64,000 bases of DNA from Saprospiraceae bacterium (lineage in GTDB: Bacteria; Bacteroidota; Bacteroidia; Chitinophagales; Saprospiraceae), in contig JAHDBJ010000012.1 in the NCBI GenBank assembly GCA_020630435.1, forward strand, positions 62,001 to 126,000, written 5' to 3'. Below the pieces are notes generated by a model. That model ran no database searches and was not told the DNA's origin. It worked only from the letters and a program-made list of their open reading frames with translations. Both the position numbers and the translations under genes were made by a program. Below are positions 14,217 through 55,649 of the stretch, piece after piece (the first letter of the stretch is position 1; each line of letters opens with the position of its first letter).

Positions 14217-15392
14217 ATGCCATTGAATACAAAAGAAATAAGAGACCTTGTTAGTAAAAACCGCTTAAAAGAAGCTATAAAACAAGTTGAAGAATATACT
14301 CAAGCTCTTAGCGATACACACTTCAACGATATTATTACAGCAATTTCTCAAAAATATGAAGGTAATGAGCGAAGTAATTTATTAAATACTATTTCTTATA
14401 ACACCTACATAAGAGAACGTTCCAAGACAACGGTTTCCTTATTGGGTTTACTAACAAAAATGGATGAATACCAAGAAGAACAAACAAGGACTTCGAGTAA
14501 TCATGTTAGCATAGATGGAGATAATAACATTGTAATACAAGGTTCTAACAATAATCACATTACTATTGGGACTGAGAATGAGTCCGATGTTGATGATAAT
14601 GAAATAGTAAGTGGAAATAATGGAGGATATCTATTGTATTCAATACCTAACGAAATGACGTTAAATGTTCTCTATAAATGTATTATAAGAATTTCAATTT
14701 TAAAAGAAAAACTTCTAAAAGATTTTTTTGTTGAAACTGTTCGTATAAAAAATATTGAAAAAGTATCCGATGTAATGGAGGTTGATTTGATAAATATGGG
14801 AAACAAAAATTTCTTAATTGAAAAGCCTAATAGCAAAGATCAAATAGTAGATGGTGAAACTTGTACAGAATGGATTTTTTATGTAACGCCAATAAAATTA
14901 GGATTACATAAACTTATTTTAAAAATATCAACTGTAGCGTTTATAAATAATAAAGAACGGAAAAAAGAAATATTATTAGAAGAGAGTGTTAATATTTTAA
15001 CAATTGAATTATATGATGATAATCCTCCTAATTTTAAAATTGTGGAGGGGCTTATCATTGGAGATGAAAACCCTCCTGTTTCACCAACAACAAGTGAGCA
15101 AGACTTACTTACTGTACCCCACTTTGATACTTTAACTGGACAACAATTAGAGCAGTTTACAGATGCACTAATATCAGCATATCGAAATCGTCTAGCCTTA
15201 GAACGCTTTTGTAGATATAAATTAGATAAGAACCTTAATACAATAACAGGAAATAATAATTTAAATGATGTAGTTTTTCAGTTAGTAGAATATTTTGAGG
15301 CAAATGGACAATTGCATCAATTAGTAGAAGAAGCCTATAAAGATAAACCCAATAGTCCTCTACTTAAACAATTCGTTGAATCCTTATCGTAA
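14217..15392 (+). CDS. EAD11-beta domain-EAD1 adaptor of a conflict-type system
   Basis: A 391-residue protein with three parts. Residues 1-85 (MPLNTKEIRDLVSKNRLKEA, later ERSNLLNTISYNTYIRER) match effector-associated domain 11. Next is a short beta strand stretch VSIDGDNNIVIQGSNNNHIT (about 98-117). Residues 135-265 form an all-beta domain (YLLYSIPNEMTLN, VMEVDLINMGNKNFLI, TEWIFYVTPIKLGLHKLILK) that I associate with bacterial TIR and caspase-linked proteins. The C-terminal 90 residues (LTGQQLEQFTDALISAYRNR, LERFCRYKLDKNLNTI) are an EAD1 domain, the same type as the N-terminus of the downstream protease. No enzyme motif is visible, so it is probably an adaptor that bridges signal and effector by homotypic contacts. 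The downstream gene is 51 bp away on the same strand. Confidence 0.75.
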   Translation: MPLNTKEIRDLVSKNRLKEAIKQVEEYTQALSDTHFNDIITAISQKYEGNERSNLLNTISYNTYIRERSKTTVSLLGLLTKMDEYQEEQTRTSSNHVSIDGDNNIVIQGSNNNHITIGTENESDVDDNEIVSGNNGGYLLYSIPNEMTLNVLYKCIIRISILKEKLLKDFFVETVRIKNIEKVSDVMEVDLINMGNKNFLIEKPNSKDQIVDGETCTEWIFYVTPIKLGLHKLILKISTVAFINNKERKKEILLEESVNILTIELYDDNPPNFKIVEGLIIGDENPPVSPTTSEQDLLTVPHFDTLTGQQLEQFTDALISAYRNRLALERFCRYKLDKNLNTITGNNNLNDVVFQLVEYFEANGQLHQLVEEAYKDKPNSPLLKQFVESLS

Positions 15393-15443
15393 ATCGTCTG
15401 AAGTTAAAAAGCAAAATAACTGGTAAGACCCCAAAATAAAAAG

Positions 15444-16493
15444 ATGAAATTAAACCTGAAACTTACTCATAAACAGCTAGAACAATTTGAGATAGCCTTG
15501 CTAGATGCTTATCGTAGTTACGATGCCTATAAACGTATATTGCGTTATGGTTTAAATAAAAAACTACAAAATATTGTAGGAGAAGGAAAGCCTTTGAAAA
15601 ATATGGTTTATGATCTTCTAGAGGTTGCGGAGGCAGAGAATTGGCTAGGAGAACTGTTGATAGTAGCAAGAAAAGAAAATCCAGATAATCTTAAATTACA
15701 GGAGCTTGAAGAAGCTGTAGGAATTGCTACACGTGAAATCTCTAAAACTGCACTTGAGGCAAAGATTAAAGTCAAATCTAAATTTTATAGTCTTAACGAT
15801 TTTTTGACAAAGCTCAATCAACTTGAAAAGCAAATCTGTCGGATAAAAATCCCATTATCCGATACTAGAACTACTTATGGTACAGGTTTTTTAGTAGCAC
15901 CAGATATTCTTTTAACCAATTATCATGTCGTTAAAAGAGTAATTGATGGAGCAGTACCCGCTTCGAACATCGAATTACTTTTCGATTATAAAAAATGGCA
16001 TCCGAGCCAAGAAAAGCTAGGAGGGAGTCTGTACCGTACAGCAGAAAATTGGCTTATAGATCATAGCCCTTATAGTTCTTATGATATTAATAATACCATT
16101 AGCAAAGAACCTTCAATAGAAGAATTAGATTATGCATTAATAAGGCTAGAAAGAAAGCTAGAAGATAGAGGCTTTATCAAGCTCCCTAAGATAGATACTG
16201 CTATTGAAGAAAATTACAGAGTCAATGCTCCACTCTATATTATTCAACATCCAGAAGGGAAACCTCTAAAAATAGCTTTAGAGACAGAGAGTATTATTCA
16301 AATGAACGATAATAAAACCCGTGTATATCATCAAACTTTAACGGAAACAGGGTCTTCTGGTTCACCATGTTTTAATGCTGATTTAGAATGGATTGCCCTT
16401 CATCATAGTGGAGAAAAATATTATAAGAATGGAAGCATTCCAATAACAGCACTAGTCCAGCTATGGAAAAAAAGAGGGCTTGAAATAGTATAG
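15444..16493 (+). CDS. EAD1-trypsin-like serine protease effector
   Basis: A 349-residue protein. Residues 1-95 are EAD1 (LTHKQLEQFEIALLDAYRSY, YKRILRYGLNKKLQNIVGEG), clearly homologous to the C-terminus of the upstream adaptor. A linker helix leads to a trypsin-like domain: GTGFLVAPDILLTNYHVV with His161, ELDYALIRL with Asp229 and ETGSSGSPCFN with the nucleophile Ser305. The triad is complete, so it should be active. There is no signal peptide, so it acts in the cytoplasm. EAD-fused trypsins are known from bioinformatic surveys of NTP-dependent conflict systems, where the protease is the presumed effector. Targets are unknown. Confidence 0.85.
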   Translation: MKLNLKLTHKQLEQFEIALLDAYRSYDAYKRILRYGLNKKLQNIVGEGKPLKNMVYDLLEVAEAENWLGELLIVARKENPDNLKLQELEEAVGIATREISKTALEAKIKVKSKFYSLNDFLTKLNQLEKQICRIKIPLSDTRTTYGTGFLVAPDILLTNYHVVKRVIDGAVPASNIELLFDYKKWHPSQEKLGGSLYRTAENWLIDHSPYSSYDINNTISKEPSIEELDYALIRLERKLEDRGFIKLPKIDTAIEENYRVNAPLYIIQHPEGKPLKIALETESIIQMNDNKTRVYHQTLTETGSSGSPCFNADLEWIALHHSGEKYYKNGSIPITALVQLWKKRGLEIV

Positions 16494-18027: not shown

Positions 18028-19386
18028 ATGAGAATTCACTTAATCGCTATAGGAGGAGCGGCAATGCACAATTTGGCGATTGCCCTAAAAGAAAATGGAC
18101 ATGATGTTTCAGGATCGGATGATGAAATATACGATCCTTCTAGGAGTCGGTTAGAAAAAAATGGATTATTACCTGCACAGTTTGGTTGGGATGAGAATCG
18201 AATTTCTGAAGAGTTGGATATTATTATTCTTGGAATGCATGCTAGAAAAGATAATCCTGAATTGCTCAAAGCGCAAGCTTTAAAGTTGAGGATCTATTCC
18301 TACCCCGAATATGTATATAATGCTTCAAAAGATAAAAAACGAATTGTAATAGGCGGAAGTCATGGGAAGACGACGACAACTTCTATGATAATGCACGTAA
18401 TGCAATATCACAAAATGAATTTTGACTATTTAGTAGGAGCATCGATCGAAGGTTTTGAAAATATGGTGCGCTTATCCGATGCACCAATTATTGTGATAGA
18501 AGGTGATGAGTATTTATCGTCTCCAATAGACTTGCGGTCTAAGTTTTTGCATTATCATCCGCATACTGCTATCCTAACAGGAGTTGCTTGGGATCATATT
18601 AATGTCTTTCCTACCTTTGAAGACTATGTCAAACAGTTTGAAAAATTTGTAGCTTCTATAGATAAAGAAGGAGATTTATTTTATTATAAAAATGATATTT
18701 ATTTAGAAAAAATAGTTCGAGGTACGGAAATACCTAAAAACACTAAAAGTTATGGACTTCCTGAATATACTCTTAAAGCTAATCAAGTATTTTTAAATGT
18801 AGCTACTACAGCTTATGGCTTGAGTATATTTGGACAGCATAATCTAGAAAATTTGGAAGCTGCAAGGTTGGTTTGTGCGGAATACGGTATCGATTCAAAA
18901 TCGTTTGCTGAGGCAATACAACATTTTAAGGGAGCAGCGAAAAGACTACAAAGAATAGGAGGAAATGAGCAAGGAGAGCTATATATTGACTTTGCACATG
19001 CGCCTTCAAAAGTTAAAGCGACAACACAAGCCCTTAAAATAACAAATGAAAATTGCCTGCTTACAGCCTGTGTAGAACTACATACATTCAGTAGTTTAAA
19101 TAAAGTATTTTTACCTCAATATAAGGGTAGCTTAGAACAGGCAGATCAAGCGATTGTCTTCTTTAATGAACATACATTGAAGATGAAAAAATTAGAACCT
19201 ATAACATCAACAGAAATCATTGAGGCATTTGACCACCCCAATTTATTCGTTTTTACAGATAAAGAAACGTTGAAACAACATCTTTTAGAGCAAAAATGGG
19301 AAAAACACAATTTATTAATGATGAGTTCGGGAAATTTTAGGGGACTTGATTTTTTAAAACTTTGTAATACTATTTTTTCTGCTTAA
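18028..19386 (+). CDS. mpl: UDP-N-acetylmuramate:L-alanyl-gamma-D-glutamyl-meso-diaminopimelate ligase
   Basis: A 452-residue Mur ligase. The N-terminal Rossmann motif HLIAIGGAAMHNLAIALKEN followed by HDVSGSDDEIYDPSRSRLEK is typical of Mpl/MurC. The ATP loop is GGSHGKTTTTSMIMH and the catalytic middle domain has VIEGDEYLSSPIDLRSKFLH and LTGVAWDHINVFPTFEDYVK. GAAKRLQRI and DFAHAPSKVKATTQAL begin the C-terminal domain. The Mpl-type NLAIALK after GGAAMH and the DHINVFPT segment separate it from MurC. It recycles murein tripeptide onto UDP-MurNAc in the cytoplasm. It is followed 198 bp later by a histidine kinase with no evident functional link. Confidence 0.93.
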   Translation: MRIHLIAIGGAAMHNLAIALKENGHDVSGSDDEIYDPSRSRLEKNGLLPAQFGWDENRISEELDIIILGMHARKDNPELLKAQALKLRIYSYPEYVYNASKDKKRIVIGGSHGKTTTTSMIMHVMQYHKMNFDYLVGASIEGFENMVRLSDAPIIVIEGDEYLSSPIDLRSKFLHYHPHTAILTGVAWDHINVFPTFEDYVKQFEKFVASIDKEGDLFYYKNDIYLEKIVRGTEIPKNTKSYGLPEYTLKANQVFLNVATTAYGLSIFGQHNLENLEAARLVCAEYGIDSKSFAEAIQHFKGAAKRLQRIGGNEQGELYIDFAHAPSKVKATTQALKITNENCLLTACVELHTFSSLNKVFLPQYKGSLEQADQAIVFFNEHTLKMKKLEPITSTEIIEAFDHPNLFVFTDKETLKQHLLEQKWEKHNLLMMSSGNFRGLDFLKLCNTIFSA

Positions 19387-22189: not shown

Positions 22190-23443
22190 TCATCTTTTAA
22201 ATAAATCCTTTTTGTGTTTTTCAAAGAGTCTGATTATATTATCAATTGACTTATATTCTATAATTCTTGCGTTTGGGTGTTCAAATGTTCTTAATAAATA
22301 AGGAAGATCGTTCCTATCTTTTACAAAAACGATGCAACTTTTTTTAGTTCCTAATGCCCAACCGAGTTCGACAAGAACAGATGATAGAAGTTTGGTTGGA
22401 TAAATAAGAATAAACTTATCTAAATAGTCTATCATATATGTCGCTTTACTAAAAGAAATAGAGGGATAATCAAAATGCTCAATTGTTTCCTTATCAGAGC
22501 CGGCAAAATACACATCACAGTTAAATATTTCTTTCAATTTTTTAGCTAGCAAAATGATTTCTTTTCTAAAACTTTCATAATTTGAAACTGTACTCATAGG
22601 AGCAGAGATGAAAATTCCTTTCTTAGGTTTGGTAGGTCTTAGGTTTTGCTTTTTTTGTTCTTGGCGAATAAAGAATTCCTTTAGATCTTTTTGGTCAAAA
22701 ATCCCAGTAGTGACTTTCAAGTAGTTTTTCTCTTTCTGAATTAAAAAACGTTTGATATTTGCATCTAAACCTTCGAATTCTTTTGTACCTATTTTAAACA
22801 TTTTGGAAGTAAGATCTAAATCGGCAGCTTTATCTAATGAGCCAATGCTTTCGAGTACAAGAACACCTGCTACCAATGCACCTTTTTTATCAATATTAGA
22901 ATATTGACCAATTGCAATAGGGGGTATTTTTTCAGGACTAATAATGAAATTCATATATAAATTCTTCTCTCCTGTGTTAAGGGTGCGAAGTGTGAAAATT
23001 AAATGTTGACCTACAGGGTGAATATTAAATTCTCCTAGGTAGTCTGTGCTGAGCCTACTTTTAACATTCTTTATTTTTACGGTTTTATTTGAATTTCCGA
23101 TAGTTACTACTGCTCTTGAAATGCAATGCGTTTTGGTTTCAATATCTTCATCAAAAAAATACAAGTAGAATACTTGATTTAGATATAAGGCTAGTTTAGG
23201 ATCAGCAATAAGTTCTATAGAGCCTTCATTTTTACAAAAAGCGATGTACTCTTTAAGGTATTTAAGTAGCTTTTGGTATTTCAGGTCATCTGTATCGTGA
23301 GATTTTTTGATAATAGAAATCGAGGGAGTAGAATAACCTATTACATTATAGGTCGTTTTAATCCATTCACTTAAATCTGCTGCAGTTTTGCCATATTCAT
23401 TTTTTAATAGTTCAAGTGTGTTTGTCAATTTATCATTTAGCAT
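22190..23443 (-). CDS. Protein with C-terminal TIR/deoxyribosyltransferase-like domain
   Basis: A 417-residue cytoplasmic protein. Residues 1-95 are helical (AADLSEWIKTTYNVIGYSTP, KLLKYLKEYIAFCKNE). Residues 105-235 are beta-rich (ISRAVVTIGNSNKTVKI, HPVGQHLIFTLRTLNTGEKN, YMNFIISPEKIPPIAIGQYS). Residues 272-415 show a Rossmann-like domain starting with KKGIFISAPMSTVSNYESFR and containing SSVLVELGWALGTKKSCIVF, with Glu359 where TIR NADases and nucleoside deoxyribosyltransferases have the catalytic Glu. That order (ligand-type domain then TIR-like domain) suggests an inducible NAD+ or nucleotide hydrolase, as in bacterial defence proteins. The assignment rests on motif resemblance only. The gene stands alone behind a 1.1 kb noncoding region. 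Confidence 0.55.
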   Translation of the reverse strand: MLNDKLTNTLELLKNEYGKTAADLSEWIKTTYNVIGYSTPSISIIKKSHDTDDLKYQKLLKYLKEYIAFCKNEGSIELIADPKLALYLNQVFYLYFFDEDIETKTHCISRAVVTIGNSNKTVKIKNVKSRLSTDYLGEFNIHPVGQHLIFTLRTLNTGEKNLYMNFIISPEKIPPIAIGQYSNIDKKGALVAGVLVLESIGSLDKAADLDLTSKMFKIGTKEFEGLDANIKRFLIQKEKNYLKVTTGIFDQKDLKEFFIRQEQKKQNLRPTKPKKGIFISAPMSTVSNYESFRKEIILLAKKLKEIFNCDVYFAGSDKETIEHFDYPSISFSKATYMIDYLDKFILIYPTKLLSSVLVELGWALGTKKSCIVFVKDRNDLPYLLRTFEHPNARIIEYKSIDNIIRLFEKHKKDLFKR

Positions 23444-23691: not shown

Positions 23692-23730
23692 AAAAAATCC
23701 CACAACTCCTATAGATAGGAACTTGTGGGA
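23692..23730 (-). terminator. Intrinsic terminator hairpin of the candidate small RNA
   Basis: Minus strand: TCCCACAA (23730-23723), then TCCTAT and its partner ATAGGA around a two-base loop, then TTGTGGGA (23705-23698), then TTTTTT. The stem is 14 bp with one small internal bulge. Confidence 0.7.
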
Positions 23731-23748
23731 AATATATAAATTAGTAAC
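23721..23748. repeat. Direct repeat copy 1 (28 bp)
   Basis: An exact 28-bp match to 24295-24322; with one mismatch the match extends left to 35 bp (23714 and 24288). This copy includes the 5' arm (in minus-strand sense) of the terminator hairpin. Confidence 0.8.
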
Positions 23749-23825
23749 TTCTTATGTCGGATTTGTAAGGCTCTGATTATTAGATTTTTACAACTAGAAT
23801 CAGTATAAGGTTTTGTGAGCGAGTG

Positions 23826-23856
23826 CAAAGATAGGGTTATAGTTTACATTTACAAA
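23826..23856 (-). promoter_or_regulatory. Consensus Bacteroidota promoter
   Basis: Minus strand: TTTG (23856-23853), exactly 19 nt, TATCTTTG (23833-23826). This is the best promoter match in the window and drives transcription towards the TIR-like gene. Confidence 0.7.
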
Positions 23857-24236
23857 ATACGTTCCAGTTTTGGAAACAATATATAATTGTGTTTTATCTT
23901 TTATTATAAAAATTAAATTTTATATAAATAAAGTTAAGTGAATTTAAATAAGTTTAATGGAATTAATTAGCAAAATATATATAAAGATAGACTGCAATTA
24001 ATATATTTTTTTTAAGCCAAACAAATTTTAATGAAAAAAATAATATTTTTTAACATTTCATTCTTTTTTCTAAAATTTTATATCTAAATTGCGTTTTAAA
24101 TTATGTTTATTAAAAAATTAAATATTAGTGAATTCTAAAATAAGGCATATAATAATATGTGGGTTTATCTCTACATATCTACAAAGATTAGATAATTGAC
24201 AATACTTTTGTTTTATACATATATAAATAAAATAAT

Positions 24237-24272
24237 AGCCTTGTCATAAATATGATGGGGCTTTTTTAATGA
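24237..24272 (+). terminator. Terminator-like hairpin, no obvious gene upstream
   Basis: AGCCTTGTCAT, loop AAAT, ATGATGGGGCT, then TTTTTT. The stem is 11 bp including three G-T wobbles. A TACTTTTG -7-like element at 24203-24210 lies just upstream, but no gene does. Confidence 0.45.
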
Positions 24273-24294
24273 AAATAAATTTGTTGGGATAGGC

Positions 24295-24322
24295 ACTTGT
24301 GGGAAATATATAAATTAGTAAC
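24295..24322. repeat. Direct repeat copy 2 (28 bp)
   Basis: An exact 28-bp match to 23721-23748. Here the second hairpin arm is missing; instead GGATAGGCACTT (24287-24298) can pair, with one mismatch, with AAGTTCCTATCC (about 24340-24352). Confidence 0.75.
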
Positions 24323-24370
24323 ACAATTCTTTCCTTTTTAAGTTCCTATCCTTTCAAATTTTCATGATTA

Positions 24371-24390: not shown

Positions 24391-24575
24391 ATGGTTTATG
24401 TCATTCTTATGGCACTTTAGATTGGTATGAAGTTATAAATACTTCCTCTACAACACTCATACGTATGTTCAAACAGATTGAATTTAACAAGGATAATTCC
24501 CTTTGTTGAATAGCCAGACGATTGCTATAACCTATGCTTGGAATCTATTTTGTAAACCTATTAAAACTATTTACG

Positions 24576-25406
24576 ATGCTTAAAAAGATAACTTATATTC
24601 TCTTGTTTACATTTATTGCTACTCTAGCAGTGATATTTTGGGATATTCTTCGACCAGAAGAAAAAGAACCAAATTTTTCACCTGTACCTGAAGTAGATAT
24701 AAGAGTAGAAGAAGAAGAAAAAACAAAAAATGCACGCATCAATGCTGCAATTGGTGCTATTGAAAAACAACCTCCTGTTAATCAAGATAAAGACTATGTC
24801 CAAATCTTAGGAGAACTGAAACAGTTTTTGAAAACACCTAATCTGAATATTGATGGATTAATATCTGCAAACAAAAAAATCACATCCTATCATGCTCAAA
24901 AAGGGAAGAAATCAGCCAACCTAGCAAAAATCCAAAATATCATTGTGACGGTATTGGATTCAGGAGAGGATTTTTGGTCTGAAGAGAAAGAGAAAGAAAT
25001 AAAAGATGCAATTGCAGATGCTTTAATTCGAGAATTAAATGCTCCTGCTGTTGAAGCTCCGACTAAGGATGAACCGAAAAGTCCAACTGCTAGTATTGAG
25101 AAAGAAGAGCGAAAAAATAAAGCTCTTCAGGTAGGACAAGAGCATATCCAGCATCTAAGCACTCAAATATTTAAAATACGAAGTGATATTTCTTATCAAG
25201 CAAGCAGAAGCAAGGACACATTTAATCTTGCTCGGAAGATACCTCCTCTCGAACGGGATATTTACCGTACTAAAGATGATTTGGAAAATATACGATTAGC
25301 CGAACGACAATATACAAATGGGATAATCAGCCTAGATAGATACAATGAAACTATTGAGAAAAGAATAAATCGAATTGTTAAAAGAGCAAAACCAATATCA
25401 TTATGA
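24576..25406 (+). CDS. Membrane-anchored protein with EAD11-like C-terminus
   Basis: A protein of about 276 residues starting MLKKITYILLFTFIATLAVI, a single N-terminal transmembrane anchor. An acidic linker (VDIRVEEEEKTKNA) and a helical middle with a Pro/Lys-rich spacer (PTKDEPKSPTASIEKEER) follow. The C-terminal helices end AERQYTNGIISLDRYNETIE, which has the same ER-x6-IS-x3-Y spacing as the EAD11 domain of the adaptor at 14217. An EAD11-like interaction domain is therefore possible. An upstream in-frame ATG at 24534 would add 14 residues. It overlaps the next gene by 4 bp (ATGA), showing co-translation. Function unknown. Confidence 0.7.
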   Translation: MLKKITYILLFTFIATLAVIFWDILRPEEKEPNFSPVPEVDIRVEEEEKTKNARINAAIGAIEKQPPVNQDKDYVQILGELKQFLKTPNLNIDGLISANKKITSYHAQKGKKSANLAKIQNIIVTVLDSGEDFWSEEKEKEIKDAIADALIRELNAPAVEAPTKDEPKSPTASIEKEERKNKALQVGQEHIQHLSTQIFKIRSDISYQASRSKDTFNLARKIPPLERDIYRTKDDLENIRLAERQYTNGIISLDRYNETIEKRINRIVKRAKPISL

Positions 25407-26398
25407 AAATACTATTACAAACTTGTATAGCACTATTTATTTTTGGGGGAGTAGTACAGGGACAACCGACACAATCTCCATTGAAACCTAACAGTATCTC
25501 AGTAAAAGGAGATGCTCCAATAATTGATAATATAACAGCCGAAAATGAATGGCTAAAACAAAGAATTCTTGATTTAGAGGAAAAATTAGTTAAACAAAGT
25601 CATGAAACTAAGAGATTACGAAAAAAATCTCAAAATGCATTATCAAAAATTTCTCAAATGGATACAGAAATTAAATCCAAAGCTAAGTTAACAACTGAAC
25701 TAAATTCTAAAATAAATGAATTAATGTTTCAAAATCAATTAAATGAACAATCCATTTTATCAATTCAAAGTGAAAAAAAAGTGTTTGAAACACTGTACAC
25801 AAACTCTGAAGAAATGAATGATGTCCTAAAAAATAGACTAAAGACCTATCAAAAAGACTACAATGATTTAACTAATAGAAATAGAATAATTTCTGATCAA
25901 TTAGATGAGAGTGTAAAAGAAATTGAAAGACTAGAACAAATAATTGTTTTGCAACAAAATACTATTGATAGCCAAGGAGTCGTGATTGTTTTAAAACAAG
26001 ATACTATAGATGCTCAGAAGGAAATAATTGAAAATTTGAGAACAGTAGTTGGCAAAGAGTGTTCTAATGTATCAATTATCAGAGGGAAAATGGAAATAAA
26101 ACTAGGTTCTTTCCCTAAAAGAAGAATAAAAAAGCTTTTAGTCAATGCTTGTTATAGTGAAGTAGCATCAACTGATAATACAAAGATTGCTTATTTCTAT
26201 TTGATAAAAAGAAATCCAAATGGCTCTAAAGAAACGGTTTATAGTAAGGAGTTCCCAATGCAGAAAGGAGAAGATGGTATATATAGAGGAAGTTCTACAA
26301 TAATATTAGAAAAAAGATTAGAAGATAATGCAAAATATCAATGTCTCCTGATGTACAGAGAAGGAGTCATCTTGAAAGCTGAATTCGATCAGCTTTAA
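25403..26398 (+). CDS. Exported coiled-coil protein
   Basis: A 331-residue protein with a signal peptide (MKILLQTCIALFIFGGVVQG, cleavage near GQP). Residues 45-210 are a long coiled coil rich in Glu, Lys, Gln and Leu heptads (ENEWLKQRILDLEEKLV, ISDQLDESVKEIERLEQIIV). The last 110 residues form a beta-rich domain starting MEIKLGSFPKRRIKKLLVNA. It probably sits in the periplasm and could form an oligomeric stalk. It overlaps the preceding membrane protein gene by 4 bp, so the two likely work together. No enzymatic motif is visible. Confidence 0.7.
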   Translation: MKILLQTCIALFIFGGVVQGQPTQSPLKPNSISVKGDAPIIDNITAENEWLKQRILDLEEKLVKQSHETKRLRKKSQNALSKISQMDTEIKSKAKLTTELNSKINELMFQNQLNEQSILSIQSEKKVFETLYTNSEEMNDVLKNRLKTYQKDYNDLTNRNRIISDQLDESVKEIERLEQIIVLQQNTIDSQGVVIVLKQDTIDAQKEIIENLRTVVGKECSNVSIIRGKMEIKLGSFPKRRIKKLLVNACYSEVASTDNTKIAYFYLIKRNPNGSKETVYSKEFPMQKGEDGIYRGSSTIILEKRLEDNAKYQCLLMYREGVILKAEFDQL

Positions 26399-26410
26399 AA
26401 ATTTAAAAAC

Positions 26411-26449
26411 AATCTGACCGAACTATTTAAAAAATAGTTCGGTCAGATT
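26411..26449. repeat. Perfect 18-bp inverted repeat between two genes of the envelope trio
   Basis: AATCTGACCGAACTATTT (26411-26428) and its exact complement (26432-26449) around a 3-nt loop. There is no T-run on the plus strand; TTGTTTTTAAAT follows on the minus strand. It could be a partial terminator or an mRNA processing or stability hairpin, 16 nt upstream of the next ATG. Confidence 0.65.
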
Positions 26450-26465
26450 ATAAAATATTAAAACT

Positions 26466-27821
26466 ATGATAATTAAATATATACTAACAGTATCAGCATT
26501 GCTTCTAGGGGGTCAACTAAATAATGATACACTATTCAAGCAAACTGATAAGACCCAAAATGTGTCGGTCTCATCGATTTTTACCGACAGCAATAACATT
26601 ATTTGGGCAGGCACTGAAAGTGGTGTAATTACAATAGATCTTAAGAAGAAAATAAATACAACTATTGAACGAGTAAGCGGGGGCGTCTATTCTCTTATGG
26701 AAGAAAAAGCGACAGGAAATATTTGGCTCGTTACCAGAACATATACGATGAACAACCATTCACGCAATGAAAGTGAAGCACTTAACGAAGTTAAATCTTT
26801 AGTGACAAAAGTAGTAGACATGGGTAAGGAAATCTGGATAGCTACTAAAGAAAACGGAATTATTCGATATGATAAGCATACTTCGGAAGAAGAAGTTTTT
26901 AATAAAAGAAATACAAAGCTACCGAGTAATTCGATTAATGATATTTTTGTAGATAGGGATAATCGTATTTGGGTAGCAACGGATAATGGCGTGTGTGTAA
27001 AATATGCTCACAAATGGAAAGTCGTCAAAAAGAAAGTCAAAGCAAATGCGATTAAATCTATTGATAATAGGATATGGGTTTCAGGGATTCGACAACTTTG
27101 GGAGATTAAAGACGATAGAGTAATGAAAACCATCCAGACAGATACCTTAATCCAAACCAAAAATATCTCTGATTTTGAGTTCGATAAAAATGGCAATATC
27201 TGGGTAATTACCAATAAAGTTTCTGTAAATAGAGATAATAAATGGCATCATTTTGGTAAAAATGATGGTTTTACGAGCATTCAGCCTACATGCATTACAA
27301 TCGATAAATACAATACCGTTTGGGTCGGAACGGCTGGTAGAGGTATTTTCTATTATAAACAAGAGGTTGAACGAGAAGGCGAAGATATTCAAACTAATAC
27401 CCAACAGTTATTAAAATACGATCCCTATAATTTAAAATTAGACAATCGTCCTATTGTTAAACAAGAAATCAATCAGCATATATTGAAGTCAACCTCCTTT
27501 AAGATTTTTGTTTTTGATTACAATGAATATGACAGAGATTCTGTAAATATTTATTTGAATGAAAAACCAATTCTCACTAATCATCTTTTAACCAAAGAAG
27601 GTTATACCTTCAATGTCAATGTTAATCCAGATTCAACAAATTACATCATTTTACACGCAATAAATCAAGGGAGTAAACCGCCTAATACGGCAGCCATTCG
27701 AATAAAAGAAAAAGACGAAGAGGGGCAGCCAACCGAAAAACGTTATAATCTACGTTCGGATCTAACATCTTGTGGAGCTATACAACTTAAATACCGCCCC
27801 ATAGAAATTGATGAAGACTGA
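26466..27821 (+). CDS. Secreted two-component-regulator-type propeller protein
   Basis: A 451-residue protein. After an N-terminal hydrophobic signal (MIIKYILTVSALLLGG) come repeats of the Reg_prop type: NIIWAGTESGVITIDLKK, KEIWIATKENGIIRYD, NRIWVATDNGVCVKY, GNIWVITNKVSV and NTVWVGTAGRGIFYY. These form a single beta-propeller (about residues 40-300) like the sensor of hybrid two-component systems, but no kinase is attached. The C-terminal 130 residues are a beta domain (FKIFVFDYNEYDRDSVNIYL, YNLRSDLTSCGAIQLKY) that I have seen on other Bacteroidota envelope proteins. It is the third gene of the trio, 67 bp after the coiled-coil gene. Confidence 0.8.
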   Translation: MIIKYILTVSALLLGGQLNNDTLFKQTDKTQNVSVSSIFTDSNNIIWAGTESGVITIDLKKKINTTIERVSGGVYSLMEEKATGNIWLVTRTYTMNNHSRNESEALNEVKSLVTKVVDMGKEIWIATKENGIIRYDKHTSEEEVFNKRNTKLPSNSINDIFVDRDNRIWVATDNGVCVKYAHKWKVVKKKVKANAIKSIDNRIWVSGIRQLWEIKDDRVMKTIQTDTLIQTKNISDFEFDKNGNIWVITNKVSVNRDNKWHHFGKNDGFTSIQPTCITIDKYNTVWVGTAGRGIFYYKQEVEREGEDIQTNTQQLLKYDPYNLKLDNRPIVKQEINQHILKSTSFKIFVFDYNEYDRDSVNIYLNEKPILTNHLLTKEGYTFNVNVNPDSTNYIILHAINQGSKPPNTAAIRIKEKDEEGQPTEKRYNLRSDLTSCGAIQLKYRPIEIDED

Positions 27822-38963: not shown

Positions 38964-38996
38964 CAAAGATAGTATCTTTTAAACGGAAAATCCAAA
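38964..38996 (-). promoter_or_regulatory. Promoter of the tRNA-Ser/tRNA-Pro operon
   Basis: Minus strand: TTTG (38996-38993), 21 nt, TATCTTTG (38971-38964), 10 nt upstream of the tRNA-Ser 5' end. It has the same -7 sequence as aroC and the candidate small RNA. Confidence 0.7.
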
Positions 38997-41339: not shown

Positions 41340-43814
41340 TTAGTCTATATCTAGACGATTATCCGTAGCATCGTTTAAATAAGTGTTATGATCTCCAATG
41401 ATTGTAATTCTGTGTTGCTCTTTATCGGGTCTACTTTCGTGAAGGATGCGCTGTTTTAGGGCTTGATCAAATAGGTTATCTATCAAGGCAAAAACAGAAA
41501 CAGCCTCGTAGGAGTTATCACATTCAATGGTGTCTTTTCGCTTTTCGATTCGCTTAGTGATGCTAGAAAATTTATAAAAATGCGGTTCGTATTGGCGTTC
41601 ACAGCTGTCGCAGTTGCAAGGGATAAACTTTTGGACTTTAATCCCTTCATACGTACGGTGTAGCTTATCCATTTCTTCGGAGATAATGGTCATCAATTCC
41701 TTTTGATAAATCCCGCTTATACGAATGGAAATCTCGTTTCTAGCATAGGTCTCTGTGACTAAGGCAAAAGTCTTATTGCGTTCCAATACAACGCCTTTTT
41801 TCCAGGCTTTGTCCAAGTCTTTTAACAGATGGTGGGTTCGAACCACCAAGCGGCTTAAAAGTCCTTTTGGCATGAAGATATATCGGTATCGAAGTTGAAT
41901 ATTCTGTTCTCTATCCCAACTGAAATCGTCAGGCTCACTTTCGGAGAGCAATTGGGGGATAAGGTATTCGTCCGAACGCCCGTCTTTTTGATAGCATAAC
42001 TCAAATTTTATCATCAATTGCAGGAGTTCAGGAATCATATCTTGGTAGCTGCTTTCTGTCCATATGTTTTGAACGTCTTCTTTAGAAAAATGCCCATATT
42101 GTCCTTTGATATTCTCATCATCAAGGACACGATAAACCGCATTCGTGACCCACTCGTTTTGTAGGATGATCGTCTTTCTTAGTAAATCGTCTTTTTGAAA
42201 ATGTAGGCAAGTCCCCAAGTCATGGAGGTATTGGCTTAACTCTAAGGCTTTTTGCTTTTCGGTAATCTGTTGTTTATGACAGATTTGATAATAGCCTTCT
42301 AGACTGATATAGGGCTTTGTTTTAGCTTGTTCGAGTAAATCCTCTCGGACTTTTATCCAGAATTTGGGCAGCTTTTGACCAATATGCGGCAATTTTTGTA
42401 TGTAATGCTCTATATCTTTTTGCAATTCGTCCAATCCCCGATTGCTTAGGAGGTTAGTAGCATATTTTTCCTTAATAAAATCAAATTGTCCTTGCATACT
42501 CTTCAAGTCTAGGGCTTTGCTTCTGTCTCCTTTTTCGTTTTGAACAAGGAGTAGGGGACTGCCTCCTCCAAACAACTCTACCGTTTGTAGCCAATAATTA
42601 AAAGAAGCATCGTTCAGGGATTTATCGTCTTTGCGGGTATCATCTACTAGGATATACAAGGATCGTTTTGTCAAAAAAAACTGATGTGTAGCATGGTAGA
42701 TCTCTTGCCCACCAAAATCCCAAAGATTGATTTTAAATTCTTGCCCATCGACACAAGGGAAGTATAATGGCTGTATATCGATTCCTCTGGTCGTCTCTTC
42801 CTCTTTGGGCATTTCGGACTGGCGATTTTGCAATTTACGAGCAAGACTCGTCTTTCCTGCCCCTCCTTCTCCTAATATTAATAATTTGGCTTCGTATAAG
42901 TATTCAGAACCTTGTTTTTCTAAATCTTCAAAATAGGAGAGAATGGCTTCGTTGCCTTGTTGTATGATTTCTAATGGGGGGTTGGAGATGGGATTATTGA
43001 AGAGGTTTATTGTATTTGATTTAAACCTATCTTCCATAGATACTTTAAGCCCTTTTTTAATGAGTGGGAGAATTGGAGAAATGTCTTGGATTTTATTATC
43101 ACGCAAGTTAAGGGTTGTTAAATTTGTAAGATTTTTTAGTGAGCTTATATCTGATATTTGATTATGATTAATCCGAAGACTCTCTAAATTCGTAAGATTT
43201 TTTAGTGAGCTTATATCTGATATTTGATTATGATTAACTGTAAGACTCTTTATCTTTGCAAGATTTTTTATAGACTTAATATCTGATATTTGATTATGAT
43301 TAATCCAAAGACTCTTTAAATTCGTAAGATTTTTTATTGGACTTATATCTGGTATTTGGTTATTACTAATCCGAAGACTCTCTAAATTCGTAAGATTTTT
43401 TATAGACTTAATATCTGATATTTGATTGCCAATTAAGCTAAGTGAAGTTAAATTAATAATAGTAGCTATTGAATTAATATCAGTAATACTATTTAGACTT
43501 AGACTTAATCTTGTAAGATTTTTATAATTTTCTAATTGCTTTATATCTGTTATGTTATTATGGCTTAAATCTAAATACATTAAATTTTCAGGAAAAATAG
43601 AATCTTGTTTCTTTATCCATCCTAAATAATGTATCAATTTTTTATTTGTTTCTAAGATGTTTATTTTGTTGTGACGTAAACTTAAAGAGTCCAAATGCTC
43701 CAATTCGTGCAATCCAGTAGGAATAGAGGTTAATCCCAAATTACTTAGATCCAACCTTTTACTTTTATTTTTTTTAGCTTCTGCTATTCGTTGTTGAGCG
43801 ATTTTTTTTGACAT
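41340..43814 (-). CDS. Roco protein: leucine-rich repeats, Roc GTPase and COR domain
   Basis: An 824-residue protein. LRRs span about residues 18-275, with five nearly identical 22-residue units at 121-230 (LTNLESLRINHNQISDIS type). The Roc GTPase begins at about 308: Walker A LGEGGAGKTSLARKLQ (about 314-322), switch II NLWDFGGQEIYHATHQFFLT (about 366) and LLLVQNEKGDRS as the NKxD-equivalent. The COR domain follows (FWIKVREDLLEQAKTKPYIS to about 700), then a Cys motif FIPCNCDSCERQYEPHFYKF. The tail has ITIIGDHNTYLND. Such proteins are dimerising GTPases. The partner and role are unknown. There is no signal peptide. The start codon lies in a 22-bp hairpin. Confidence 0.93.
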   Translation of the reverse strand: MSKKIAQQRIAEAKKNKSKRLDLSNLGLTSIPTGLHELEHLDSLSLRHNKINILETNKKLIHYLGWIKKQDSIFPENLMYLDLSHNNITDIKQLENYKNLTRLSLSLNSITDINSIATIINLTSLSLIGNQISDIKSIKNLTNLESLRISNNQIPDISPIKNLTNLKSLWINHNQISDIKSIKNLAKIKSLTVNHNQISDISSLKNLTNLESLRINHNQISDISSLKNLTNLTTLNLRDNKIQDISPILPLIKKGLKVSMEDRFKSNTINLFNNPISNPPLEIIQQGNEAILSYFEDLEKQGSEYLYEAKLLILGEGGAGKTSLARKLQNRQSEMPKEEETTRGIDIQPLYFPCVDGQEFKINLWDFGGQEIYHATHQFFLTKRSLYILVDDTRKDDKSLNDASFNYWLQTVELFGGGSPLLLVQNEKGDRSKALDLKSMQGQFDFIKEKYATNLLSNRGLDELQKDIEHYIQKLPHIGQKLPKFWIKVREDLLEQAKTKPYISLEGYYQICHKQQITEKQKALELSQYLHDLGTCLHFQKDDLLRKTIILQNEWVTNAVYRVLDDENIKGQYGHFSKEDVQNIWTESSYQDMIPELLQLMIKFELCYQKDGRSDEYLIPQLLSESEPDDFSWDREQNIQLRYRYIFMPKGLLSRLVVRTHHLLKDLDKAWKKGVVLERNKTFALVTETYARNEISIRISGIYQKELMTIISEEMDKLHRTYEGIKVQKFIPCNCDSCERQYEPHFYKFSSITKRIEKRKDTIECDNSYEAVSVFALIDNLFDQALKQRILHESRPDKEQHRITIIGDHNTYLNDATDNRLDID
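43126..43455 (-). repeat. Five 66-bp LRR-encoding tandem units
   Basis: Tandem 66-bp units inside the Roco gene, each encoding 22 residues. The first two share an identical 46-nt stretch starting at 43126 and 43192. The others differ by a few substitutions. The period matches the leucine-rich-repeat length. Confidence 0.85.
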
Positions 43815-55336: not shown

Positions 55337-55344
55337 TAATTTTG
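55337..55344 (+). promoter_or_regulatory. Candidate -7 element of the B12 operon
   Basis: TAATTTTG, an exact TAnnTTTG match ending 6 nt before the riboswitch aptamer. The nearest TTTG (55321) is 12 nt away, shorter than the ideal, so support is partial. Confidence 0.4.
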
Positions 55345-55350
55345 TGCTAG

Positions 55351-55509
55351 ATTTCGGTTTCTGAGAAGAATTAATAGGGAATTTGGTGAAAATCCAAGAC
55401 AGTCCCCGCTGCTGTAAGTTCTTGCATACTTTTGAATTTAATGCCACTGTTTATGATCAAAATGGGAAGGTATTCAAAAGAGAACAAGTCAGAAGACCTG
55501 CCGAAAATT
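55351..55509 (+). promoter_or_regulatory. Cobalamin riboswitch
   Basis: This contains the conserved aptamer elements in order: a P1 arm ATTTCGG, GGGAATTTGGTGAAAATCC, the core CAGTCCCCGCTGCTGTAAG (B12-box region), GCCACTG, GGGAAGG and the closing AAGTCAGAAGACCTGCCG, ending in CCGAAAAT, which pairs with the first arm. It precedes a TonB-dependent receptor and a BtuG-type lipoprotein, so when B12 is bound it should reduce their expression. Class (Cbl-I or II) was not determined. Confidence 0.93.
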
Positions 55510-55649
55510 AAATCTATTTTCATACTCTTCGGGTGAAAAGATGTGAAAACAACACATTTGTCAACGAGTTATTATAGAATAAAACTGTCCTATGATAGCA
55601 GTTGATATAAGTTTGTTTTCCTACAAGATATCCGAAAAAAACGGCTCAT

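Follow-up and report, generated by a model that had tools for sequence, protein, structure and literature searches.

The 64,000-nt stretch of a Saprospiraceae bacterium genome analyzed here (GenBank assembly GCA_020630435.1, contig JAHDBJ010000012.1, positions 62,001 to 126,000; hereafter "the window") carries a promoter and an intrinsic terminator in close succession on the minus strand. These elements probably delimit a stand-alone gene, with its own promoter, an AU-rich body, and an intrinsic terminator, whose product would be a noncoding RNA of ~130 nt. Tentatively, the best explanation we can offer for the locus is that the most likely job of this RNA gene would be antisense control of its divergent neighbor, and that it is not primarily an attenuator. 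Small RNA targets are hardly known in this kind of bacterium, and here the sequence itself points to one target and one pairing site. If true, the locus shows the birth of an antisense pair from a short duplication.

Anatomy of the minus-strand RNA gene

The promoter consists of a -33 box, TTTG (23853–23856, identified by sequence pattern), and a -7 box, TATCTTTG (23826–23833), separated by a spacer of 19 nt on the minus strand. TTTG/TAnnTTTG is given as the -33/-7 consensus of the Bacteroidetes primary sigma factor in the section of PMC7366714 used here. The excerpted text of PMC6847099 refines the -7 box to TAHHTTTG, which TATCTTTG fits, and finds the -33 element much less evident. About 95 nt beyond TATCTTTG on the same strand lies a terminator hairpin (23730–23698) whose 14-pair stem has one bulged base and is capped by a CUAU loop; six T follow it (23697–23692). 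RNA folding gives -15.7 kcal/mol for its core and -18.2 kcal/mol with the closing pair. This hairpin was absent from the output of a simple consensus terminator scan and was recovered by RNA folding. According to the same excerpt of PMC6847099, the transcription start in F. johnsoniae is separated from the -7 box by 4–5 nt, so the RNA would start at 23821 or 23820 and be ~130 nt long. With the 4-nt spacing and an end at the T6 run, the predicted noncoding small RNA spans 23692–23821 on the minus strand.

The original prediction had described a promoter, a hairpin, and no coding frame in an otherwise gene-free region. Sequence and folds confirm TTTG-N19-TATCTTTG followed by the 14-pair hairpin and T6, all on the minus strand. 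The region is indeed free of genes, as no ORF of 60 aa occurs in the 1,090-bp interval that separates the two flanking ATGs, and within the RNA no ORF of at least 20 aa has both its start and its stop. One long minus-strand frame does cross the RNA (39 aa, from a TTG at 23828), and it begins within the -7 box, ahead of the predicted transcript. The expected small RNA of 125–130 nt holds up as far as promoter and terminator anatomy goes, and it is from this anatomy that we infer the transcript itself.

The RNA matches no established Rfam family. In an Rfam search of the window at gathering scores, no family, including 6S, SRP, tmRNA, and others, reached its cut-off in the RNA, and at E up to 10 the sole match there was RF02589, with 18.7 bits against a cut-off of 67. 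Its 5' part is G-poor (9 G in 90 nt) and mostly unstructured, folding at -5.8 kcal/mol compared to a shuffle mean of -7.0, with 339 of 500 shuffles folding at least as well. The whole 141-nt stretch has a z score of -2.1, and 3 of 200 shuffles are equally stable, with the terminator as the main contributor. One can draw a pseudoknot (CTGATT/AATCAG with TTGTAA/TTACAA), which we rejected because 60 of 1,000 shuffles allow one too.

It is unlikely that chance alone brought promoter and terminator together. The window holds four TTTG-N18-20-TANNTTTG promoters and 12 terminator-like hairpins, and exactly one promoter and terminator lie 40–200 nt apart on the same strand, namely those of the RNA gene; 30 dinucleotide shuffles produced no such same-strand pair at that distance. 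The strictest form, TTTG-N18-20-TATCTTTG, has two occurrences in the window versus 0.2 expected (60 shuffles, largest count 2), the second of which stands 139 bp ahead of an ORF. Enrichment in the window is slight or absent for looser forms: TTG-N17-21-TANNTTTG occurs 17 times versus 9.9 expected, TTNG-N17-21-TANNTTTG 26 times versus 26.8, and TANNTTTG alone 104 times versus 97.

We also surveyed a 464-kb sample of the bacterium's own genome, made up of the window and a further 400 kb. TTTG-N18-21-TANNTTTG occurs 24 times in this sample: 10 sites fall inside ORFs, 8 precede an ORF by at most 300 bp, and 6 lie elsewhere. Three of the 14 sites outside ORFs have a terminator within 40–260 nt. These are the RNA gene's promoter, a promoter at 38996 that precedes the window's two tRNA genes, and one elsewhere in the genome (C36:119931) with an ORF right behind it. 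The unit at C36:119931–120130 comprises a promoter, a hairpin of -21 kcal/mol with a T-run at 126 nt, and an ORF at 173 nt, and from its sequence could be either a small RNA or an attenuated leader. Its promoter part gave nothing in Rfam, and its hairpin part gave only sub-threshold small-RNA matches (best 27.2 bits versus 90). The -7 box TATCTTTG itself is found 45 times in the 464 kb: 35 times in ORFs, 9 times at most 400 bp ahead of an ORF on the same strand (the RNA gene's own box is counted here, at 381 bp), and once elsewhere. Its reverse complement, which served as control, is found 35 times in ORFs, 4 times upstream, and 6 times elsewhere. Thus, 9 of 10 non-ORF copies lie upstream of a same-strand ORF versus 4 of 10 for the control, in a sample where 55% of all noncoding positions already fall within that 400-bp range. 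A relative at the order level has a similar stretch (39 bp, 85%) with the weaker box TATCTTCG ~230 bp before a gene start.

A 35-nt repeat and the divergent neighbor

A 35-nt sequence is present in two direct copies in the intergenic region. Copy 1, the proposed pairing region, lies wholly within the RNA (23714–23748, minus strand), and copy 2, the proposed target site, lies at 24288–24322 on the plus strand. The copies differ at 1 of 35 positions, and searches of the 5.1-Mb genome found the repeat at these two places and no third. Among 50.9 kb of noncoding sequence, the only other case of direct repeats of at least 22 bp, with both copies noncoding and at most 1.5 kb apart, is a tandem array with a 258-bp unit. 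A 111-bp direct repeat at C36:253188 was left out of this count because one of its copies is mostly in an ORF. The tandem array sits at about 18408–18990 of the piece C47:20001–40000 (L122), and its neighboring units share 219 bp that are nearly identical. Separately, a reading frame in the window contains overlapping direct repeats of 27–53 bp at 43119–43430, with spacings that are multiples of 66 bp.

Because the copies are in direct orientation and the RNA is read from the minus strand, any plus-strand transcript that crosses copy 2 would be complementary to the RNA at all but one of the 35 positions. Downstream of copy 2, the nearest plus-strand gene is the divergent ORF at 24534–25406 (290 aa), the first of a three-ORF block (24534–27821) and the proposed regulated neighbor. 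No Pfam, PADLOC, or NCBIfam match was found for this ORF at the limits used. The second ORF of the block had no match in 198 other genomes of the family (E ≤ 1e-5), and judged from this second ORF, the block looks orphan.

A candidate -7 box for the divergent transcript, TAAATTTG, is present at 24276–24283 on the plus strand, with a weak -33 (TATG at 24251, spacing 21). With a 4-nt spacing, it would place +1 at 24288, which is the first base of the repeat. The chance of this coincidence is ~0.002 for that single site, but it was noticed after the fact, so we estimate that a fair figure is nearer 0.01. Together with its -33, the promoter scores 9/12, which is weak, and TAAATTTG is the last TAHHTTTG box before ORF 24534. 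The plus strand of the region has three TAHHTTTG boxes (expectation 1.06), and the minus strand has one, at the RNA's own promoter. A better plus-strand match, TTTG-N22-TATCTTTT (23869–23902, 11/12, spacer N22), stands back to back with the small RNA promoter. A terminator-like hairpin with a T-run (24237–24262, plus strand) falls between this promoter and the target, just upstream of the latter, and would end transcripts from 23869. The 23869–23902 promoter and the plus-strand hairpin 335 nt on from it possibly form a second AT-rich noncoding transcript.

A plus-strand transcript toward ORF 24534 would start with, or include, the 35-nt stretch complementary to the RNA. Pairing with the RNA would cover the 5' end of the message, and coverage would presumably reduce translation of the message or its stability. 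A directly repeated 35-bp piece is common to the small RNA and the proposed target site. The predicted target leader forms an imperfect stem-loop (GGATAGGCACTT/AAGTTCCTATCC, 24286–24352) whose loop holds 16 nt of the repeat, and 24280–24360 folds at -22.3 kcal/mol. Co-folding of the RNA and the target leader gives -61.0 versus -50.9 kcal/mol, a predicted net gain of ~10, since both partners form stable hairpins. The leader would be some 250 nt long; an average leader of 33 nt is given for F. johnsoniae in the excerpted text of PMC6847099. On the strength of the repeat and its position, we regard an RNA antisense to the divergent transcript as a guarded possibility.

Possible partners were ranked by duplex energy, with the RNA paired to the 350-nt stretch around every start in the 464 kb (342 ORFs of 120 aa or more). 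ORF 24534 ranked first at -71.9 kcal/mol (mean -38.8, sd 6.8), a rank that is due to the repeat and so is not independent support. The TIR-like gene on the other side of the RNA came second at -58.7, followed by -57.3. It was set aside as trivial, since the RNA's own hairpin lies within its upstream 300 nt.

Alternatively, the RNA could stand alone and act elsewhere, either on distant messages in trans or on a protein, and the 35-bp repeat could be the scar of a local duplication. The promoter and terminator anatomy by itself speaks for such an RNA, and a mostly unstructured, G-poor 5' part is also seen in several B. thetaiotaomicron intergenic sRNAs described in the section of PMC7366714 used here. 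However, the repeat lies wholly in the RNA, and in the sole orientation that gives complementarity to the divergent transcript, while the 5' part alone found no outstanding partner among the 342 ORF starts. We rate action elsewhere as rather unlikely.

Returning to antisense control of the divergent neighbor, its origin may lie in a local 35-bp duplication that made both a new small RNA and an antisense site at the first base of the message. The product would be a recent, lineage-specific switch of the three-ORF block or of a hidden toxin peptide, located beside an effector-like gene in a bacterium that uses the TTTG/TATCTTTG type of promoter. We offer this scenario as speculation that is unlikely to hold in full. 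The plus-strand ORFs of at least 20 aa in the intergenic region are 23–26 aa long, all have GTG or TTG starts, and none is convincing as a toxin.

The TIR-like gene, its upstream region, and conservation of the locus

The ORF downstream of the RNA on the minus strand (22190–23443, 417 aa) had been labeled TIR-like. The label stands at the level of fold, in alignments to solved structures, but no Pfam TIR family matched; Pfam gave a sub-threshold match to Nuc_deoxyrib_tr (14.4 bits versus a cut-off of 28.8). The structure model (mean pLDDT 65.7, four sequences, moderate confidence) suggests a helical N-terminus, a small β-barrel, and a C-terminal domain with a nucleoside deoxyribosyltransferase/CMP N-glycosidase fold. 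The C-terminal domain (residues 274–417) is nearest to the MilB CMP N-glycosidase (4jem_B; Z score 15.3, R.M.S.D. 3.2, 139 residues aligned) and in the model also appears close to DNPH1. The SPARTA TIR domain (8qlo_A) aligns to it with a Z score of 11.3 and an R.M.S.D. of 2.9 over 126 residues. The middle of the protein is modeled as an eight-stranded barrel (pLDDT 76.1, three sequences), which matches Cap15 with Z scores of 9.7 (R.M.S.D. 2.7, 98 aligned) and 9.5. The comparison does not single out a Cap15-type receptor, as Cap15 tied with avidins, OmpA, and designed barrels. From the model, it is plausible that the product is a nucleotide-cleaving kind of effector.

Homologs of the TIR-like protein were found in 4 of 198 other genomes of the family at E ≤ 1e-5, and they are only 21–29% identical over parts. 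One (L075) has the same C-terminal domain behind an apparent TIR domain, judged by eye, and another (L077) has it behind a hydrophobic N-terminus. No named relatives of the protein were found in the genome contigs searched. Elsewhere in the window, two adjacent genes at 14217–16493 encode effector-associated domains (EAD1 with EAD11, and EAD1 with a trypsin-like peptidase), a gene pair that we take to be of the conflict-system type. A cobalamin riboswitch (55338–55519, plus strand, 111.5 bits) precedes ORF 55650.

The original prediction also allowed for an attenuator leader ahead of the TIR-like gene. On the leader reading, the promoter at 23856 would drive the gene and the hairpin would be a point of read-through or attenuation. 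The RNA promoter is on the same strand as this gene, the hairpin is 250 bp upstream, and C36:119931 in the same genome has the same order of promoter, hairpin, and ORF. Furthermore, the statement that the TIR-like gene has no other promoter proved correct for this promoter type. Between 23690 and 23444, the minus strand has no match of at least 9/12, and from 24600 to 23444 the only minus-strand TAHHTTTG is at the RNA's own promoter; other promoter types were covered only by a sigma-70 scan, which was at chance level. As the gene is without a recognizable housekeeping -7 box of its own, read-through into it may occur. The attenuator itself fared poorly. One point against it is the weak folding of the RNA's 5' part, which is no better than that of shuffles. 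The 5' arm of the terminator pairs upstream at just -3.4 kcal/mol and the 3' arm at -11.9, compared to -20.5 in the hairpin, which leaves no competing antiterminator, and the terminator has a pair probability of 0.998 within the full 380-nt leader. No strong antiterminator was found in the RNA, Rfam gave no match to a known aptamer or leader family, and no leader peptide of at least 20 aa was found. A leader of ~378 nt would be unusual as well. The promoter-plus-terminator unit is absent within 700 bp upstream of all four distant homologs (first ATG as reference), in a scan whose positive control recovers both promoter and terminator at the gene's own locus. Overall, the leader reading is improbable.

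A further alternative is a relic, in which a decayed gene or mobile element left behind a promoter and terminator and the RNA is made but has no function. The region is AT-rich and has scattered partial repeats, among them GATAGGAACTT, which is present at 23714, at 24288 with one change, and at 24352 in inverted form, and the neighbors are lineage-specific in the sampled genomes. No relatives were found either, as described below. A relic nevertheless seems quite improbable to us, given promoter boxes that fully match the consensus, an intact terminator, the near identity of the repeat copies, and the lack of any coding remnant of at least 60 aa between the genes. We found no support for a mobile element bounded by the 35-bp direct repeats or by 11-bp inverted ends, as no flanking target duplication was visible by eye and genome searches gave no further copies.

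We searched for relatives of the RNA among 397 other genomes of the family and 395 others at the order level and found none. Any match at all was obtained in 2 of 39 relatives (E 0.01), 33 of 198 genomes (E 0.05), 52 of 397 (E 0.001, 1,090-bp query), and 1 of 395 (E 1e-4). Because few candidates were scored per genome (20 for the 39 genomes, 4 for the 198, and 2 for the 397 and the 395), weak relatives could be missed. Matches in the 39- and 198-genome searches were pieces of 19–37 bp. The surroundings of 16 of the 20 retained loci (L009, L010, L017–L034) were inspected, and several lie inside ORFs. No promoter-plus-terminator unit was found in those 20 loci, nor in 19 loci (L053–L071) from the 397-genome search. 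The matches listed in the latter search cluster in AT-rich 23874–24134, and none of those listed overlaps the RNA; the single match of the 395-genome search is promoter sequence. Plasmids and phages gave no match, and a 16-base core had 14 exact matches in viral contigs, none longer than 20 nt. In a genome of the same genus (64% complete), the contig stops inside a histidine kinase, before the RNA site. The palindrome AATCTRATAATCAGA was dropped as a shared element, as the contexts inspected in relatives are unrelated; in the bacterium's own genome, it occurs at 11 places with up to two mismatches, versus 5 for a reversed-pattern control. Among the titles listed in literature searches, none was on this locus.

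Comparison with known small RNAs

The predicted RNA shares several features with intergenic small RNAs of Bacteroides. The section of PMC7366714 used here reports, for B. thetaiotaomicron, a TTTG/TAnnTTTG promoter for most intergenic sRNAs, an intrinsic terminator for the high-confidence ones, and AU-richness. The same section gives a length of 78–128 nt for the DonS family of B. fragilis, and describes GibS as targeting distant messages and DonS-type RNAs as cis-antisense. Promoter type, intrinsic terminator, and AU-richness place our RNA beside GibS and DonS by description, not by sequence. It differs from them in that no Rfam family match was found for it.

The arrangement with the divergent neighbor also recalls the E. 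coli type I toxin-antitoxin systems dinQ/agrB and tisB/istR-1, in which, as predicted for this locus, a small RNA flanked by a promoter and a terminator of its own runs opposite to its neighbor within one intergenic region. As excerpted from PMC3567139, AgrB runs opposite to dinQ and is complementary over 30 of 31 nt, and tisB and istR-1 are divergent, with 21 nt complementary for IstR-1, in the excerpted text of PMC4147584. Pairing is near-perfect in dinQ/agrB (30/31) and would be so here (34/35), where the plus-strand transcript is a candidate and the complementarity stems from a direct DNA repeat. Unlike dinQ/agrB, our locus has no convincing toxin peptide among its plus-strand intergenic ORFs of at least 20 aa, and it is therefore not classed as a type I toxin-antitoxin system. 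The pairing region of AgrB is at its 5' end, whereas here it would lie in the 3' half of the RNA and take in the 5' arm of the terminator. The layout is that of dinQ/agrB, and from this one genome we infer that the RNA may function as a divergent antisense RNA of that kind.
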